From assembly GCF_000312525.1 (NCBI RefSeq), contig NZ_HE997453.1:179483-243482 (forward strand): 64,000 nt of DNA. The letters are read 5' to 3'. A program made the translations under genes and the position numbers. Under the pieces are notes generated by a model. The model searched no databases and was not told where the DNA came from. It saw only the letters and a program-made list of their open reading frames with translations. Positions 4,897-57,926 of this stretch are shown here, piece after piece (position 1 is the first letter of the stretch; each line of letters begins with the position of its first letter). This DNA comes from Bartonella florencae (lineage in GTDB: Bacteria; Pseudomonadota; Alphaproteobacteria; Rhizobiales; Rhizobiaceae).

Positions 4897-5436
4897 GTGG
4901 TACTTTATAAATTATTTAAAAATTTTTTTTCTTTTGCTGTTATTATTTGCACACTCTGTAGTATTTCCTTCAACCATGCTACTGCACAAACCTCTCATGT
5001 GCAAAATGTGCCTGCCCCACAAACATATGGTGCATGGACAAAAGTTTGTTCTCTGCCACCAGGAACACCTAATATACAATGTGAAATTGTACAAAATGTA
5101 CACACACAAAATCGCCATGATATTACTCTGCGCGTTACATTTTATAAACTTCCTAAAAATCAAGGAGCTTTGATGCGTGTTTTTGTTCCTATTCGCGTGG
5201 AATTGCGCCCTGGTGTTGGACTTAAAATTGATGATAAAAATATGGGAAGGCTAGAATATCGTCGCTGTCTTGGTGATAATTGTGTTGCTGAAGCTGTTCT
5301 TAAAGACGACATATTGCAGCTCTTTTTTAAAGGGAAGATGGCGACTTACTTTATTTTCACAACACCTGAGCAAGCAATTGGAGGACTCGTTGATCTCAAC
5401 GGCCTTAGTGATGCTTATGCAACTCTGCCAACATAA
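4897..5436 (+). CDS. invasion-associated locus B (IalB) family protein
   Basis: Predicted exported protein of the IalB family, found in Rhizobiales and named after the Bartonella erythrocyte-invasion factor IalB. The 179 residues begin with a signal peptide (basic VLYKLFKNFF, hydrophobic core to about residue 25, cleavage likely near NHATAQ). The mature part starts with the family pattern YGAWTKVC followed by a second cysteine (IQCEIVQ), and later has CLGDNC. The start is GTG at 4897: the upstream in-frame ATG at 4873 is followed by a stop. It stands alone upstream of tldD. In rhizobia a gene of this family also neighbours tldD, so a general periplasmic role is as likely as a specific virulence role. 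Confidence 0.85.
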   Translation: MVLYKLFKNFFSFAVIICTLCSISFNHATAQTSHVQNVPAPQTYGAWTKVCSLPPGTPNIQCEIVQNVHTQNRHDITLRVTFYKLPKNQGALMRVFVPIRVELRPGVGLKIDDKNMGRLEYRRCLGDNCVAEAVLKDDILQLFFKGKMATYFIFTTPEQAIGGLVDLNGLSDAYATLPT

Positions 5437-5538
5437 TAAAATTTTTGTATACTCAATGATTTAAACTTTATAGCGCGCTTCACAGCTTCTTAAGCACAAA
5501 AAATCTTTCTCAGCACCTCATGAAATAGGATAATGATT

Positions 5539-6957
5539 ATGAAATCGCTTATTGATCATTTTGATATTGCTTCATCTCAAGTGCAATCACTTGTACAAGA
5601 AACGCTTCGTCATGCTGATGATGGAGAGCTTTATCTAGAATATACAGAAAGCGAAGCTCTTTTATTTGACAATGGACAACTCAAAAATGGCTCATTTCAT
5701 CAAGATATGGGATTTGGTCTGCGCGTTGTTGCTGGAGAAGCTACCGGATATGCGCACTCTAGTGAATTATCAATAGCTGCACTCAAACGTGCTAGTGAAG
5801 CAGCAAAAGCTGTTACCTATCATAATCATGCTGGGCCTTATAGCATAGCACCACAAAAAACAAACAAAAGACTTTACCAACCACATAATCCACTTGGTAG
5901 TCCATCCTTTGAAGAAAAAAGTACACTTTTACAAAAAATTGATGCTTATTTACGGGCTAAAAATGATAAATTGCATCAAGTTACTGTTGCTCTTTCCGGC
6001 TCATTACAACATGTTGAAATTTTACGGGCAGACGGGCATCTGGTTCGTGATGTGCGTCCTCTTGTACGTCTTTCTATATCTGTGGTTGCGGCTGAAGGTA
6101 ATCGGCGTGAAAATGGCTTTTATGGATGTGGCGGGCGACAAGCATTTAGCCGATTCATTGATGAAGAAAATTGGAAACATGCTGCTGATGAAGCTTTGCG
6201 TATGGCTCTTATAAACTTACAAGCAGAAGCAGCTCCAGCAGGGACATTTGATGTTGTCTTAGCGAATGGATGGCCAGGCGTTATGCTTCATGAAGCTGTA
6301 GGTCATGGCTTGGAAGGTGATTTTAATCGTAAAAAAACTTCTGCTTTTTCTGAACTTTTAGGCCAACAGGTTGCCGCAAAAGGTGTTACAGTTGTTGATG
6401 ATGGAACAATTCCCCAGTGTCGTGGTTCACTCACCATTGATGATGAAGGTACTCCATCAGGATATAACGTTCTTATTGAAGATGGAAAGCTTATTGGCTT
6501 TATGCAAGACAGGCTCAATGCTCGGCTTATGGGGATGAAGCCAACAGGAAATGGACGTCGTGAATCCTATGCACATGCGCCAATGCCAAGGATGACCAAT
6601 ACCATGATGCTAGGAGGAGACAAAACGCCTGAAGAAATTTTGTCCTCACTCAAAAATGGTATTTATGCTGTTTCATTCGGCGGAGGACAAGTTGATATCA
6701 CTTCTGGAAAATTCGTCTTTGAATGCACTGAAGCATATCGAGTGGAGCAAGGCAAAATTGTAGCCCCCATAAAAGGTGCAACCCTTATCGGAAATGGACC
6801 CGATGCTATGAAACGTATCACAATGATTGGTAATGATAGCAAACTTGATAATGGTATCGGTATGTGTGGAAAAGCTGGACAAAATGTTCCTGTGGGCGTT
6901 GGACAACCTCATTTGCGAATTAATAATATGACAATTGGTGGAACAGCACTGTCATGA
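5539..6957 (+). CDS. tldD: metalloprotease TldD
   Basis: Zinc-dependent protease of the TldD/TldE (PmbA) pair, which processes peptides such as microcins and CcdA; its housekeeping substrate is unsettled. The active-site motif HEAVGHGLEGDFNRK (HExxxH) lies near residue 255, and the family's N-terminal substrate domain (SEALLFDNGQLK, GFGLRVVAGEATGYAHS) is intact. About 472 residues match the usual length. I chose ATG 5539 because the ribosome binding site AGGA sits 8 bases before it; ATG 5533 is too close to that site. In Rhizobiales tldD usually precedes coxB; here it is followed by a convergent RNA methyltransferase instead. Confidence 0.96.
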   Translation: MKSLIDHFDIASSQVQSLVQETLRHADDGELYLEYTESEALLFDNGQLKNGSFHQDMGFGLRVVAGEATGYAHSSELSIAALKRASEAAKAVTYHNHAGPYSIAPQKTNKRLYQPHNPLGSPSFEEKSTLLQKIDAYLRAKNDKLHQVTVALSGSLQHVEILRADGHLVRDVRPLVRLSISVVAAEGNRRENGFYGCGGRQAFSRFIDEENWKHAADEALRMALINLQAEAAPAGTFDVVLANGWPGVMLHEAVGHGLEGDFNRKKTSAFSELLGQQVAAKGVTVVDDGTIPQCRGSLTIDDEGTPSGYNVLIEDGKLIGFMQDRLNARLMGMKPTGNGRRESYAHAPMPRMTNTMMLGGDKTPEEILSSLKNGIYAVSFGGGQVDITSGKFVFECTEAYRVEQGKIVAPIKGATLIGNGPDAMKRITMIGNDSKLDNGIGMCGKAGQNVPVGVGQPHLRINNMTIGGTALS

Positions 6958-10942: not shown

Positions 10943-11168
10943 AAAAGGCTCCTTAATATTATCTTATCAGATAAGTGAAATGGTAAGAACATGTTTCTCT
11001 CCCCCCTCTTTTGTTGATAGTTTTGCATATCTTCATTGGAAAATATTTTTTATTGGTAGCATGGTATGTTCTTTTTTTTACGCATTTATTTCATAAAAAA
11101 ACAATAAAATGCCTTTCCTAAAACTCAATTATTAGATCTCCTATCTTGCAATAAATATCCCTAAAGGT

Positions 11169-11429
11169 TCACTGTTCTTCAGAATCAAGAGGCTCTACAC
11201 CTTCTGGATAACCTTCCTTTGAAAGCTGAATTTTTTCAACTTTAGCTTCAGCTACTTTCAAGAGTTTTTCGCAATGTTTTTTAAGAGATTCGCCTCGCTC
11301 ATAAATATCAATTGACTGTTCTAAAGGAACATCCCCACGTTCTAAATTCTCTACAATTGCTTCAAGCTGCTTAAGTGCTTCTTCAAAACTTAACGCCGTA
11401 ATATCCCCCTTATTTGTCTCTTGTTTCAT
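11169..11429 (-). CDS. xseB: exodeoxyribonuclease VII small subunit
   Basis: Small helical subunit of exonuclease VII, which degrades single-stranded DNA together with XseA (not in this window). From the ATG at 11429 the protein is 86 residues with the signature [34 protein letters not shown]. That start has a good GAGG ribosome binding site and lies 7 bases after the ribB stop; the frame is open to 11471 but the extra residues are just overlap with ribB. The neighbourhood (ribB upstream, dxs downstream) suits a rhizobial xseB-dxs arrangement. Confidence 0.94.
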
Positions 11430-37065: not shown

Positions 37066-38494
37066 TTATTTCTTTTTGGATCGTGCTGTAAAAGGATTGT
37101 CAGATGTGCGTAACGATATGCGAATGGGTACACCAAGCATATCAAATGTATCACGTAATCCATTGGACAGATAACGCAAATAGGATTGAGGCATGACCTT
37201 TGGTCGCGAACAAGAAAGCATAAATCCAGGAGGACGTGTTTTAACCTGTGTGATATATTTCACCTTAAGACGACGTCCCGAAATTGCAGGTGGTGGATGA
37301 TGTGCTACAACAGTTTCAAGCCATTGATTTAATTTTGCCGTAGAAATGCGACGATTCCATACACGGTGCATCGTCATGACATTTTCCATCAATTTATCAA
37401 TCCCTTGACCATATTGGCCCGATAAAGGAACTGCTCTCAAACCACGAACTTGAGGGAGAAGACGGCTACACTTTTCATGCAAATCAATCAACGTTGGCTG
37501 ACTATTTTCAATAAGATCCCACTTATTAAAAGCAATAAGTGGAACGCGCCCTTCACGAATCACAAGATCAGCAATTTGTAAATCTTGCTTTTCAAAAGGT
37601 GCAGTTGCATCAAGAACAATCACTACCACTTCTGCAAAACGAATAGCACGTAAAGTATCGGCAACAGAAAGTTTTTCTAATTTTTCTTGAATTTTTTGAT
37701 TTTCGACGCAAGCCTGCAGTATCAAAAAGTTTAATATGACGACCATGCCATTCCCAATCTACGGAAATAGAATCACGTGTAAGCCCCGCTTCAGGTCCTG
37801 TTAATAATCGCTCTTGTTTTAACATACTATTGATGAGCGTTGATTTTCCTGTATTTGGACGCCCTGCAATTGCAATCCGAATAGGCTTATGTTCATCATA
37901 AATAAGCCCTTCCTCCTGCAAATCTTCCACATCATCACCAACAGAAGCAGGCTGAACAGCACTATACTTTTCTTCATTGTTGCTTCCAAAAGCGTAATCT
38001 CTGCCAACAGCCTCTACAATTGCATCACGAAGATCGCTCAGCCCCAAACCATGTTCAGCAGATATTGGACAAGGCTCTCCTAAACCTAATGACCATGCTT
38101 CATACTCTCCCCCTTTGGCTGCTTTTGACTCAGTTTTATTAGCAACAAGTATAATTGGTTTGCCTGACTTGCGCACAAGTGAAGCAAAATTTAAATCACT
38201 CGGCGTTATTCCGCTTTTTGCATCAAACATAAATAAAACAAGATCTGCTTCATCAATAGCCGCTTTGGTCTGAGAACGCATACGGCCTTCCAGTGTATGA
38301 TCACCTGCCTCTTCCAACCCAGCCGTATCAATCACATCAAAACGCAAATCTTGAAGTTTGCCCGCATGAATACGTCGATCACGTGTAACGCCTGGCTGAT
38401 CATCAACCAACGCCAATTTTTGCCCAACCAAACGGTTAAAGAGTGTTGATTTCCCAACATTGGGGCGACCAACTATAGCAATGGTAAGGCTCAT
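37066..38494 (-). pseudogene. der: GTPase Der (EngA), reading frame broken by one base
   Basis: Der is an essential double GTPase for 50S ribosome assembly. The first frame (from ATG 38494) encodes the first GTPase domain (GRPNVGKST at residues 9-17) and the start of the second (GRPNTGKST near 210, then [10 protein letters not shown]). It then goes out of frame at a run of six T on the plus strand (37692-37697). The second frame resumes with [17 protein letters not shown] and contains the NKWD motif and the KH-like C-terminal domain to the stop at 37066. Removing one base would give an intact 475-residue protein of normal length. This may be a sequencing error, transcriptional slippage or a recent mutation; total loss of Der is unlikely to be viable. 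Confidence 0.9.
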
Positions 38495-38505
38495 AAATTT
38501 ATCCC

Positions 38506-39177
38506 TTATTTGCTATTTGCCTTGCCTTCGGCTTGCATAAGCTCAAGCATTATTCGTGCTCGATCTATAGCTTTTGATCTCAACACACCTTCTGCAAAAA
38601 TTTTCTGAAAATAATCAACAGCCTCATCAATCTTCCCTGCTTTATAGGCAGCTAAACCTAAAGCTTCCCTTGCAGACAGACGCATAGGATCAATATCATT
38701 TGCTATATCTTTGATGCGCTTTTCCACATCAGCTAAGGTCCCTGTATCAACCAAAATATAAGCAGCCCGAATTTTTGCAACTTTTCGTAAAATTTGCGGA
38801 GCTCCTTTATCAGCGGCAACAGAATCAAAAATCTCCACCGATTTTACAGCATCACCTTGTTCCATGAACAAAGAAGCCTCACGTAAACGAGCAAGAAAAG
38901 GATATCCACCAAAATGAGAGGCTTTAACAGTTTCCAATTGCTTTACGGCCTCATCAAAATGACGTGTGTCCGCAAGATCAAGACTCTTTACAAATATATC
39001 ACCAATATAACCAGCTTTCTTTATTTGCTGATAATGGTAAATTTGATAAGCAACTATCATGAGTATAAAAAGAACAGCTGCTCCAATAATTGAAAAACCA
39101 TAACGTCTCCAAAAAGCAAGAGCCTTTTCTTGACGAAATTCCGCATTCACTTCAGCAATAAAACTATCATACGACAT
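38506..39177 (-). CDS. YfgM-like tetratricopeptide membrane protein
   Basis: Bitopic inner-membrane protein of the YfgM/TPR_21 type, thought to act as a periplasmic chaperone at the Sec translocon. The 223 residues have a short N-terminal part, one membrane segment at about residues 25-45 ([20 protein letters not shown]), then TPR-like helices ([36 protein letters not shown]). It lies 11 bases upstream of der. The E. coli yfgM gene also precedes der, with bamB between them; no bamB is present here. Confidence 0.85.
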
Positions 39178-51171: not shown

Positions 51172-52526
51172 TTATTTTTCAAAAATACTTTTATCCGTTG
51201 TCCGTAACATTTGGCTGGTTATGGTTCCAGCTAACATTGAATCACTTACATTTAAGGCTGTACGCCCCATATCAATGAGAGGTTCAATAGACATAAGTAC
51301 AGCGACCAAAGAAACAGGAAGCCCCATAATGGGGAGTACTATTAATGCCGCAAAAATAGCACCACCCCCCACACCAGCAACACCAATAGAACTCAATGTT
51401 ACAACACCAACAAGAGTAGCAATCCACATAGGATCAAGAGGATTAATCCCCACGGTTGGTGCTATCATAGTCGCAAGCATTGCTGGATAAAGGCCTGCAC
51501 AACCATTTTGCCCAATTGTGGCTCCAAAAGAAGCTGCAAAACTTGCAATGGATTGTGGTACACCAATCCACCGCGTTTGTGCTTCAATATTCAAAGGGAT
51601 ACTTGCAGCACTTGAACGGCTGCTAAAAGCAAATGTTAAAACCGGTAAAACTTTTTTAAAAAACGAAAAGGATTAATTCCTGATATGCCAAGCAATACCC
51701 CATGAATTCCAAACATAAGAATAATACCAACATAGGAAGCGATAATAAAAACCAATAAATTTAAAATATCGGCAACGTGCGAAGATGCTCCCACCTTAGT
51801 CATAAGTGCGAAAATACCATAAGGCGTCAAAGCAATCACAATACGGACTAACCGCATAATCCAAGCTTGTGCAACTTGAATAAATAAAAGGGCTTTTTCC
51901 CCTTTTTCTGGATCATCTTTCTTTAAAAAAAGAGCCGCAGCCCCTAAAAACGATGCAAAAATAACAATACTGATAATTGATGTGCGCTTAGCGCCACTTA
52001 ACTCAGCAAAGGGATTTTTAGGAATCAAGGACAAAATCATCTTTGGAACATTCATATCTCCAAGTTGAGAAATACGCTCTCCAAGAACAGCAGAAACATT
52101 TTGTCCTTCATGTACCAAACTACTTGCTGTTAATCCAAAGGTATTAACAACCAAAATACCAACCAACGCTGAAAGAGCCGTGGTAAAGAGCAATATTGAA
52201 ATGGTCATGATACTCATTTTGCCAACAGCATAGACAGAATGCAACTGTGCAACCGCTGAGACGATAGAGACAAAAACCAATGGCATAACAATCATTTGGA
52301 GTAATAAGATATAGCCATCACCAACAATGTTAAACCATTCAATGGATTTTAATAAAGTGGCTTCACTTTCTCCATAAATAATCTGCAAAACACTTCCAAA
52401 AATCAAACCAATGATAAGCCCTAACATCACACGTAGTGAGAGGCTCCATTTCATTCTTTTACTTTGGACAAGCCATAACAAAAAAATAACAAATAGAAAT
52501 AAGTTGATAAAAAAATTAAATGTCAT
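51172..52526 (-). pseudogene. tcyP: L-cystine/dicarboxylate:cation symporter (TcyP/YdjN-like), frameshifted
   Basis: DAACS-family secondary transporter most like the TcyP/YdjN cystine importers ([32 protein letters not shown]). The first frame runs from ATG 52526 and ends at a TAA at 51636-51638 after RFLKKFYRF. The second frame continues the family sequence with [17 protein letters not shown] and runs to the stop at 51172. The frames join by a -1 shift at the run T TTT TTA AAA AAG (51651-51663 on the plus strand), giving a protein of about 451 residues, the normal length. It may be a pseudogene, a sequencing error, or read by slippage at this site. Confidence 0.87.
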
Positions 52527-53387
52527 TGTTTATGCTCACTTTTATGCCCACTATTTTTCTGATTGATATTGAATGATTTGCAAAATTAAAGATAAATGCA
52601 TGATATTTGAAACTGAAATATAAAGCTTACAATGCTTTTACGAAATCATTATTTTTTTAATTTATAAGTTAAAAGAGAAATTTTTATCTACTAATCACGG
52701 TTTAAAGAATACAAAATAGGAGCCTACTATTCTGCAAATTTACACGCTTGTTTAAAACAATGCCTGCTCAATACTGCAAAGAACTATCTTACAACAGAAT
52801 CTATAAATAGTACAAAGAAAAAGTCATTATGCATGTATACCATCATCTTTTCACTTATGAAAGATCAAGTCGACAACATCGTAATATTTGCCTGTTCAAA
52901 ATATTACACAACCTCTGGCAACTGAAAGCATTCATAAAAGAATTTTAAAAGCATATTTTTAAAATGCTCTGTAGTGTAATAATAATTTATCAAGATATTT
53001 TATTTATAATATAATGGAGCATTAAAAAATAATTAAATTTTCTTACTAAAAATTTAATTATTATGAAGCATAAAAATTATGTTCTTATACATCATACGTG
53101 GAAAAAGCTATACCGATAAAAAATATTTACGAAATTGCTCATACCTCTTATGAAAGTTCTTAAGAAAAAAACAGATCTATCAATTTTTGATTGAATACAG
53201 ACATGATAAAGATGTTTTGTATTTGAAGAAGCAAAGTTGGCAATATTCAATAAATTTTTATTATTTGCTTTTATGAACGATACTAGGAGATGAGATTGAA
53301 AACAAAGGGAATTTCTCTCTAGAGAGAAATTATGAATGTGCAACAATAATATGCTTTACTTTTTCAAAGCAGTTTTTTGCTGTAAAA
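52527..53387. other. 861-base intergenic region, the longest gap in the window
   Basis: Very AT-rich and stop-rich on both strands. The longest frame (53092-53346, minus strand) lacks a ribosome binding site and recognisable sequence. The region holds the symporter promoter on its left and a perfect 22-base palindrome near its right end, just past the gshA stop. It may be decayed coding sequence but nothing is recognisable. Confidence 0.5.
53310..53331. terminator. perfect 22-bp palindrome downstream of gshA
   Basis: AATTTCTCTCT is followed immediately by its reverse complement AGAGAGAAATT. It begins about 57 bases past the gshA stop. As RNA on the minus strand it folds into a stem of about 9 bp with CCCTTTGTTTTC after it, so it could end gshA; as DNA it could equally be a dimer-binding site. 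Both readings are inferences. Confidence 0.45.
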
Positions 53388-54761
53388 TTAATAGGCACAT
53401 TCTAAAAATATAGGTTCCACAGCACCACTCCAAATGGAATGATAAAGTGATAAAAATTTATCCGCATCTGTTTGCCCCATTGCAACGACCTCTTCTAAGG
53501 GAACTAAAAAATTTGTCTCATCCAAACCATCAGCATCGCATTGTCTGCGATTTTTTAAGCCCTTGCGTGAAATAGCAATAGCCTGACGGGCTATTTCTAA
53601 AATAATGGTCTGACGAAAAGGTGTTCTTAATCCTTCTTTAGGAACACGTTCACGCATCTCTAAAACTTCTTCAAAACACCAATCTTTTGTCAAAGCCTCT
53701 GCTTCATTAAGCGCTTCACTGTCATAAAGAAGTCCAACCCAAAAAGCTGACAAAGCACAGATACGCTTCCAAGAACCACAATCAGCACCTCTCATTTCTA
53801 AAAATCTTTTTAAACGTACCTCGGGAAATAAAGTTGATAAATGATTAATCCAGTCCCCCATATTGGGTACTGAATTGGCAACCTGCCCTTTTAATGCTCC
53901 ATTCATGAATTGACGAAATGTTATATGTGTACAATCATAGTAATGATTATCGCGCACAACAAAATACATTGGTACATCAAGTGCCCATTCAACGTAATCG
54001 GCAAAACCAAAGTGCTCAGAAAAAACAAACGGAAGAACTCCAGATCTCTGATTATCAGTATCGCACCAAATTTCAGAGCGCCAAGATAAAAAACCATTTG
54101 GCCTCCCTTCCGTAAAAGGTGAACTGGCAAATAATGCTGTCGCAATAGACTGTAATTTCATGGATACTTGCATTTTTCGTCGCATATCAACCTCAGATGA
54201 AAAATCAAGATTAACCTGAGTAGTCGATGTGCGATACATCATATCAAGACCACTATGGCCAACTTTGGGCATATAATTGGCCATAATCTGATAACGTGAT
54301 TTAGGCATCCGTGGAGTTTGCGCTAAGGTCCATTTTGGACTAGCACCCATTCCAAGAAAAGCAATACCCAACGGTTTTGAAATTTTCTTGAGAAGCGCTA
54401 AATGCTCCATTACCTCATAGTAAGTATGAGTAATCGTTTTTAGTGGTGCTCCAGATAATTCAAATTGCCCTCCAGGCTCCAAAGAAATGGCACCTTGACC
54501 AACTTCTCCTATAAGTCCAATAATATTTCCCTCATCTACAATAGGTTTCCATCCTAAAGCTTCTTGCATTCCCTCTAGGAGTGCACGAATTCCTCTTGAG
54601 CCTCCATAAGGAACAGGGCGAAAACCGTCTATATAGAATGGAAATTTTTCATGTTCTGTACCAATACGCCAATCATGCTCTACTTTACATCCCCCTTGGA
54701 AATAGTTAACCAAGGAATCTAAGTTATAAATTTCACTTTCATCATTTATATCAAGCGCCAT
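53388..54761 (-). CDS. gshA: glutamate-cysteine ligase, plant/alphaproteobacterial type
   Basis: First step of glutathione synthesis. The 457-residue protein belongs to the GCS2-like family shared by plants and alphaproteobacteria: DWRIGTEHEKFPFYIDGFRP near the N terminus, EPGGQFELSGAPLKTITHTY, SKPLGIAFLGMGASPKW and MYRTSTTQVNLDFSSE are characteristic. No GshB domain is fused. It is read after rsmE with a 68-base gap, an order I recall from other Rhizobiales. The product is used by the glutaredoxin encoded at 49 kb. Confidence 0.96.
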   Translation of the reverse strand: MALDINDESEIYNLDSLVNYFQGGCKVEHDWRIGTEHEKFPFYIDGFRPVPYGGSRGIRALLEGMQEALGWKPIVDEGNIIGLIGEVGQGAISLEPGGQFELSGAPLKTITHTYYEVMEHLALLKKISKPLGIAFLGMGASPKWTLAQTPRMPKSRYQIMANYMPKVGHSGLDMMYRTSTTQVNLDFSSEVDMRRKMQVSMKLQSIATALFASSPFTEGRPNGFLSWRSEIWCDTDNQRSGVLPFVFSEHFGFADYVEWALDVPMYFVVRDNHYYDCTHITFRQFMNGALKGQVANSVPNMGDWINHLSTLFPEVRLKRFLEMRGADCGSWKRICALSAFWVGLLYDSEALNEAEALTKDWCFEEVLEMRERVPKEGLRTPFRQTIILEIARQAIAISRKGLKNRRQCDADGLDETNFLVPLEEVVAMGQTDADKFLSLYHSIWSGAVEPIFLECAY

Positions 54762-56045: not shown

Positions 56046-57926
56046 TTAATTTGCATCAGCATCTTTTTTAACCCAGAAATTACCATGATCCTGTCCTTTG
56101 GAGTTGAGAGAAAAAGTAGGAGGTCGCATCAAACTATTAGCAAGGCAGTGAACGTCTCTACATAGAGTTTCTGAGCTATTATTTTTTTGCAGTTTCGCCT
56201 GTAATGTGAGCTTATCTTGCCAATCTTGCATAATAGCAGATGCAATTGTTCCCCACATGGATAAACTCCAATCTGCTGTACGCATTAATGATTCTGTTAT
56301 CTTTGTCGTACCATCTGAAAAGCTTGTTTGAATACTCCAACGCTCAAAAGCTGTTGAAAAGGTATTATCATTCATTAAAAGAAATTGTTCATTTTTTGCA
56401 AGCCTTATCTGTAAATCATTCAAATCATATCCTAACAGGCGGCCAGAAGACATACTCAGTGTTAATTCACCCCGCATTTTTGCAAAAATTTCTGACCAAG
56501 AATTGGCAAGCGTTCGTAATGTCATGGTAAAATTCGCTTTGCTCTGTAAAAACGGAGTAATTCCCAAAACCTCTAAAACAGTCTGCATATCAATAGAAGT
56601 TCCTGAAGCACGCCCTTCAAGCCGCAACTTCTGACCAGCTGGTGTAATTTCAATATTGCTTTGAAGTGATCCACCCAAAATATTTGCATGTCCAAGATCA
56701 AAAATGCCATGACCATTTCTGATTTGTATCGCAACAGCTAAATTTGTAAGTGTAATATTGCTTAATTTTGCTTGTGGTGCAGAAAGCCGTATATCCACCC
56801 CAATACGATCAAAAATTTCCATCTCAAAGAATGGATTTTTCCCTTTAACTGAAAAAAACACTGGTCTAAAGAGATCAAAATCTAGATTGTCAAATGCTAA
56901 AGATCCAATGATGATTGGTACATAGTTGTGAAAGTCAACGTCTAAAGCTCCACGTGCATTGGCTGTTCCCATCGTAAATGTAACATCATTCATTTGAACG
57001 TGCATTGGCTGTGCTAAGAAGCGAGACTCCCATACAATAGGCACTTTTAATCTATGTCCCCAAAACTGATTGCCTCCAATCCAAGAGAGTGTCTGATTCC
57101 ATCCCGGAGAACGCATCGACACTTTCCCATCAAAAATATAATATTCAGATAATCGTGCCTGCCCTACAAAAGTTATACCTCCACGCACTGAATTGAGACT
57201 TGCCTTAACTTGGCTTTTTCCTCCTGCCAAAAGCAGTAAGGCTTGATCAGCATCTATTAATAATTTTGTCAACTCTCCACGCCAACGAGCATCTGCACGA
57301 AACCGTGCTCCTTTCGTCAATTCCGGCCAATCTAAAGTGGCATTTAATCCTGTTATTTTTTCTGCTACACGAGATATACTATCATGATAAACAAGGACAC
57401 CATCCTCAATCGTAATTCGTCCAAAAGGCTGATTCAAAAGACTCTCTATATCTGGATGCTCTGGATTATGCTTCAACATTTCACGAGCATTGCTTATGGC
57501 TAATCCTAATGCGCCTTGGGAGCGTGAAAATCTATCAAAAAAATCCGTTACTGTTTTAACTGGTTTTTCTATAATAAACTGGGGACGCACAATTCGTGTC
57601 TCTAAAAAAGAGATATTTCCCCAAAGCAGATCTATCAAAGAAAGATCAACTTCTATGGATTCAGCTTCCATCAGCGGTACAACATGATTCATTCTTGATG
57701 TTAAAGTAACACCAGAAAGATATGCTTTAGGGTAAGGAAATAGATTCAACCGCGGTGGATCACGCAATTGCACATCATAACCTGTCCACGCACTCAAATC
57801 CTGTGCTAAACGAATGCGAATCGTATCTGTAGACACAAGATACGGTAAAATAAGAATACCAATTCCAAATAAAAAAGTAATTGTAATAAAAATTCCGCTC
57901 AAAAATTTTATTATTCTGGCGTGCAC
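56046..57926 (-). CDS. AsmA family protein
   Basis: Large membrane-anchored periplasmic protein of the AsmA family, linked to lipid transport between membranes and outer-membrane assembly. The 626 residues start with one membrane helix (FLSGIFITITFLFGIGILIL at about 8-28), followed by the N-terminal AsmA motif region (DLSAWTGYDVQLRDPPRLNL, PYPKAYLSGVTLTSR). The C-terminal AsmA-2-like part is beta-rich (LSMSSGRLLGYDLNDLQIRL). The start is GTG 57926 with AGAGGA about 5 bases upstream. It is a monocistronic gene divergent from folD. Confidence 0.88.
   Translation of the reverse strand: MHARIIKFLSGIFITITFLFGIGILILPYLVSTDTIRIRLAQDLSAWTGYDVQLRDPPRLNLFPYPKAYLSGVTLTSRMNHVVPLMEAESIEVDLSLIDLLWGNISFLETRIVRPQFIIEKPVKTVTDFFDRFSRSQGALGLAISNAREMLKHNPEHPDIESLLNQPFGRITIEDGVLVYHDSISRVAEKITGLNATLDWPELTKGARFRADARWRGELTKLLIDADQALLLLAGGKSQVKASLNSVRGGITFVGQARLSEYYIFDGKVSMRSPGWNQTLSWIGGNQFWGHRLKVPIVWESRFLAQPMHVQMNDVTFTMGTANARGALDVDFHNYVPIIIGSLAFDNLDFDLFRPVFFSVKGKNPFFEMEIFDRIGVDIRLSAPQAKLSNITLTNLAVAIQIRNGHGIFDLGHANILGGSLQSNIEITPAGQKLRLEGRASGTSIDMQTVLEVLGITPFLQSKANFTMTLRTLANSWSEIFAKMRGELTLSMSSGRLLGYDLNDLQIRLAKNEQFLLMNDNTFSTAFERWSIQTSFSDGTTKITESLMRTADWSLSMWGTIASAIMQDWQDKLTLQAKLQKNNSSETLCRDVHCLANSLMRPPTFSLNSKGQDHGNFWVKKDADAN

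Follow-up and report, generated by a model that had tools for sequence, protein, structure and literature searches.

The dnaX gene of Escherichia coli uses the heptamer A_AAA_AAG for a programmed -1 frameshift. Slippage at A_AAA_AAG is weakened by a cognate tRNA with the anticodon CUU, and extra tRNA-Lys(CUU) reportedly lowers dnaX frameshifting, as Tsuchihashi and Brown are said to have found in 1992. For E. coli, the sections of PMC4066793 drawn on here report that A_AAA_AAG gives more than 0.10% of -1 product without stimulators, the background without a motif being 0.055%, that shift-prone motifs without a stimulator reach 2.1 to 10 times background, that A_AAA_AAG counts among the most efficient motifs when stimulators are present, and that its shiftiness is tied to lysyl-tRNA(UUU). 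T_TTT_TTA is missing from the list of motifs above 0.10% in those sections, a list that also demanded under-representation. A bypass of indels by transcription slippage has been described in endosymbionts, where the part of that work concerned deals with long poly(A) runs (PMC5009743). Singleton frameshifts validated by BLASTp are, in the relevant part of the account of Antonov et al. (2013; PMC3711429), expected to be sequencing errors, and for Bartonella genomes, Guy et al. (PMC3610622) flagged tandem CDSs as potential artificial frameshifts from homopolymer errors.

The locus described here lies in a stretch of 64,000 nt of the Bartonella florencae genome, analysed as a whole and referred to as the window, in which an L-cystine symporter gene (tcyP-like, SDF family; minus strand, 51172-52526) is split between two frames. 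With E. coli dnaX, it shares the identical heptamer in the identical phase; unlike dnaX, it shows no significant structure at a usable distance and no conservation, the genome has a second lysine tRNA (CTT), and the motif arises only with the break. It resembles TcyP-type L-cystine/sulfocysteine symporters (E. coli TcyP and relatives) in its PF00375 matches and in an identity of 50-54%, whereas the gene here is broken by one base and its substrate is putative. Like the singleton frameshifted genes of Antonov et al. (2013; PMC3711429), the split occurs in one genome (of 71), involves two halves of a known family and sits at A/T runs; we found no feature in which it differs from them.

The split symporter gene

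The first-frame ORF (51636-52526, minus strand) encodes 296 amino acids, of which the last four are out of frame, and the -1 frame continuation (51172-51651, minus strand) runs from VLPVLTFAF... to SIFEK and a stop. The two halves match the PF00375 profile at positions 1-242 and 246-386 of 387, with scores of 170.8 and 139.6 bits, respectively (cut-off 27.9), in agreement with the original prediction that a -1 shift enters the conserved continuation. In a tblastn search of a plasmid collection with the first half, 106 records matched; 11 of the 20 matches listed carry a tcyP or L-cystine transporter annotation, with 50-54% identity over residues 21-294 at the widest, the other matches listed being unannotated beneath the alignment. 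Among NCBIfam models, the symporter matched only DctA, GltP and SstT, all far below the cut-off, and the solved structures (24 sequences, one of them Excitatory amino acid transporter 1 and the others bearing the names of glutamate/aspartate transporters, symport proteins or homologues of these) are uninformative on cystine. By sequence similarity, we assign the gene product to the SDF family PF00375 as a tcyP-like protein, i.e., to the TcyP branch, with L-cystine as its putative substrate. A second symporter copy sought in the same genome was not found: the split gene is the only SDF gene found there. Upstream, at 53388-54761, lies a gene that we take to be similar to glutamate-cysteine ligase; the pair (window 51172-54761) would plausibly constitute a functional neighbourhood for thiol metabolism.

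In the zero frame, the minus strand reads ...NPF-CGT-TTT-TTA-AAA-AAG-TTT-TAC-CGG-TTT-TAA, the stop codon being located at 51638-51636. Two tandem heptamers, T_TTT_TTA (51663-51657) and A_AAA_AAG (51657-51651), had been noticed in the zero-frame phase; direct reading of the minus strand and the computed phase (an offset of 861 bases relative to the ATG, a multiple of 3) agree on this, and the -1 frame runs on to ...SIFEK and its stop. Over a stretch of 51 bases round the site, the B. florencae sequence is one base shorter than all 63 aligned loci, a set in which some genomes are represented more than once. In the alignment, the missing base falls where the T run meets the A run, both six bases long in B. 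florencae; in 45 of the 56 close relatives, the base at this position is part of neither run, and in the other 11 it extends the T run. The affected codon specifies Phe in all 56, each of which has Phe-Phe before Lys/Arg-Lys, and Leu in the zero frame of B. florencae. The split had been put down to a one-base deletion in a homopolymer: a one-base loss fits broadly, given a private break and three more breaks found only in this genome (see below), whereas its placement within a homopolymer has to be amended to the junction between two runs. Both halves of the gene are otherwise intact and carry no further frame damage.

A DNA search of 71 Bartonella genomes, B. florencae included, found the symporter gene in every one. 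In all 70 other genomes, one frame runs through the site (in L117, the part read starts at residue 121), and the break occurs in 0 of the 70; the comparison at the break codon that the original prediction called for thus yielded a split that is not conserved. The break is private to B. florencae among the 71 genomes searched. No second genome of the same species was found in the collections used.

Selection was assessed with the Nei-Gojobori method on the two pieces separately, omitting the junction codons; the alignment comprised the 56 close relatives, to the exclusion of 14 distant ones, and omega was computed against the first 20. The downstream half has an omega of 0.050 (mean dN 0.0244, mean dS 0.4926), which falls inside the span of 0.029-0.076 seen in the relatives themselves, 12 of the 20 being higher. 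For most of its history, this half has therefore evolved under purifying selection. For the upstream half, omega is 0.116, and 19 of the 20 relatives are higher. Strict substitutions found only in B. florencae are too few to use: none non-synonymous and two synonymous in the first half, and none in the second. Loss of purifying selection in the second frame, named beforehand as an observation that would count against a functional downstream half, was looked for and is absent. The low downstream omega fits an assembly error, a recent loss or a bypass equally; it counts only against an old pseudogene.

The heptamers and programmed frameshifting

In-phase heptamers of the form X_XXY_YYZ (Y = A or T) are common in this genome: 496 occur in 156 of its own ORFs (168,834 nt), among them 20 A_AAA_AAG and 45 T_TTT_TTA. 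When one base was removed in silico from coding A/T runs, an in-phase heptamer remained in 109 of 484 runs of at least six bases and in 95 of 168 runs of at least seven. With heptamers this frequent after base loss, the phase fit is often to be expected, given that a base has been lost here, and it is weak evidence for recoding.

The GCAGC/GCTGC stem that had been noticed about 30 bases downstream is present and begins 27 bases past A_AAA_AAG. A stimulatory structure a few bases past the heptamer was not found: besides the distance of the stem, the fold of the 71 downstream bases that include it (51580-51650, minus strand; -13.5 kcal/mol, z-score -0.95) is no better than that of shuffled sequences, 28 of 200 shuffles being at least as stable, and the stretch is not significant as a stimulator. 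The two heptamers are preceded by an AGGA element, at distances of 14 and 20 bases, and this element is altered in some relatives with an intact frame. Among the 30 of 36 tRNA hits that were read, tRNA-Lys(CTT) (L136) occurs beside tRNA-Lys(TTT) (L126); AAG is thus not read solely by tRNA-Lys(UUU), as it would be under dnaX-type conditions, tRNA-Lys(CTT) being its cognate. In the frame of the B. florencae dnaX gene itself (L120; 666 codons between stops), an in-phase A_AAA_AAG is absent, and the only X_XXY_YYZ heptamers (Y = A or T) in phase there are A_AAT_TTC and T_TTA_AAA. Conservation of break and motif among relatives was likewise not seen (0 of 70 genus genomes).

Conservation, downstream fold, tRNA set, the organism's own dnaX and the base rate of the motif all leave a programmed frameshift unsupported; none favoured it. 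A trace of -1 product from A_AAA_AAG is possible by analogy with E. coli. The suggestion that the heptamers could still give some full-length transporter finds no support as far as a useful amount is concerned, the break not being conserved, the fold having a z-score of -0.95, tRNA-Lys(CTT) being present and dnaX lacking the motif.

Other breaks in the assembly and the origin of the split

As an internal control, the window and three other stretches of the same genome (224 kb) were compared with two single-contig relatives, G022 and G001. To be counted, a break had to show up against each of the other two genomes, in an ORF of at least 150 amino acids with 80% coverage. With B. florencae as the focus, four frameshifts were found in this genome only (149 and 132 orthologues tested against G022 and G001, respectively); G022 as the focus gave none (146 and 143 tested) and G001 gave one (130 and 143 tested); the gene affected has three stops as well. 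The excess of breaks in B. florencae is not significant (Fisher test: p 0.12 against G022, 0.37 against G001 and 0.053 pooled). The gene broken in G001 (L113, about 4944-6757) is the orthologue of the window gene at 56046-57926; its frameshift and three in-frame stops suggest a true pseudogene there.

The counts cover frameshifts only, stop-codon rows having been left out by inspection (short ORFs and positions close to ORF starts account for many of them). Among frameshift rows from ORFs of at least 100 amino acids, those set aside in B. florencae were two genes of the C1 region seen only from G001 (one of these genes is broken in G022 too) and a further junction at the der start, seen only from G022. 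For G022, rows in the window and in the C2- and C4-region stretches, seen from B. florencae ORFs, were set aside, the window row coming from the truncated B. florencae der and the C4 row lying near an ORF start; for G001, one frameshift row each was set aside in the C1- and C4-region stretches. A first version of the control also used G011, for which just 15 of 49 ORFs had hits.

Each of the four breaks found only in B. florencae is at an A/T run or next to one; they affect the tcyP-like gene, der/engA and two genes that we take to be RsmG-like and YihY-like. The latter two, which encode 215 and 284 residues, respectively, are located on contig C2 and carry one-base differences beside an A run (RsmG-like) or at a T run (YihY-like), the sites being L159 about 829-895 and L161 about 11152-11185, respectively; in the YihY-like gene, the break is near the start (residues 26-36 of 284). 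Such genes are not known to be generally essential, so these two breaks could be real. In the der/engA gene (37069-38512, minus strand), a difference of one base in length at an A run near 37692-37697 breaks the frame. TIGR03594 (EngA) matches it in two pieces and has no other match above the cut-off in the genome, and der/engA is intact in G011, G022 and G001. EngA/Der is called essential for Bacillus subtilis in the pertinent part of PMC3466195 and is described, in that of PMC4399890, as an essential GTPase.

We consider it probable that the split is an error in the draft assembly, the base call having come out one short where the T run and the A run of an intact tcyP-like gene meet. We infer that the cell has the base and that only the record lacks it. 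A base dropped from the A/T-rich stretch coding for Phe-Phe-Lys-Lys would leave two in-phase heptamers behind, and the slippery motifs at the break are most likely an ordinary by-product of the lost base. The single frame kept in all 70 other genomes, the low omega of the downstream half and the statements of Antonov et al. and Guy et al. on such frameshifts also count for an error. The genome is a draft of 89 contigs, and a break at an A run in its apparently essential, single-copy der points to base-calling errors; this gene, whose essentiality would hold by analogy with other bacteria, speaks more strongly for an error than the excess of breaks, which is not significant (pooled p 0.053) and in that respect counts against it. 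Moreover, the aligned position lies in neither run in 45 of 56 close relatives, so that a plain miscall of run length is not the explanation unless the B. florencae lineage had a longer T run. The opposite view, that the base was truly and recently lost and the transporter inactivated, as a young pseudogene or a strain-level loss, we hold to be possible at somewhat less than an even chance. The first 292 residues and four foreign ones would then be made and presumably degraded. A/T runs are indel-prone, a break unique among 71 genomes with both halves otherwise intact is what a young pseudogene would show, gene decay appears genuine in a relative, in the G001 orthologue of 56046-57926, and the lack of a significant excess over the relatives also favours a real loss. 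However, no SDF gene besides this one was found in the genome, the lack of further frame damage or relaxed selection allows only a recent event, and der, called essential elsewhere, has the same kind of break in the same window.

It is very unlikely that a real one-base loss is usefully bypassed by a -1 slip of the ribosome on the heptamers, or by slippage of RNA polymerase on the T/A runs, giving a full-length symporter with Phe changed to Leu at one site. The in-phase heptamers leading into a conserved continuation, the conservation of the downstream half and the efficiency of A_AAA_AAG in E. coli (high with stimulators and above 0.10% without them, in the sections of PMC4066793 cited above) would suit such a bypass, but the break is absent from all 70 relatives, the stem lies 27 bases off in a fold with a z-score of -0.95, the AGGA at 14 and 20 bases is altered in some relatives, tRNA-Lys(CTT) is present and the organism's own dnaX has no in-phase A_AAA_AAG. 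Slippage in endosymbionts is, in the part of PMC5009743 concerned, a matter of long poly(A) runs, whereas the runs here have six bases. Scarcely credible, and argued by analogy, is an extension of the bypass to all four genes, in which the tcyP and der breaks, like the two others, would be real and would be tolerated because ribosomes or polymerase slip on runs of six to eight bases and so make enough in-frame product; if true, this Bartonella would tolerate indels in short A/T runs even in a gene essential elsewhere, like insect endosymbionts at long poly(A) runs.

On the preferred reading of an assembly error, the locus serves mainly as a warning: when a run in an A/T-rich genome loses a single base, the result is often a textbook-looking slippery heptamer, so that phase fit taken alone is poor evidence for recoding. 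More such breaks may turn up in this assembly, and comparison with relatives should come first.
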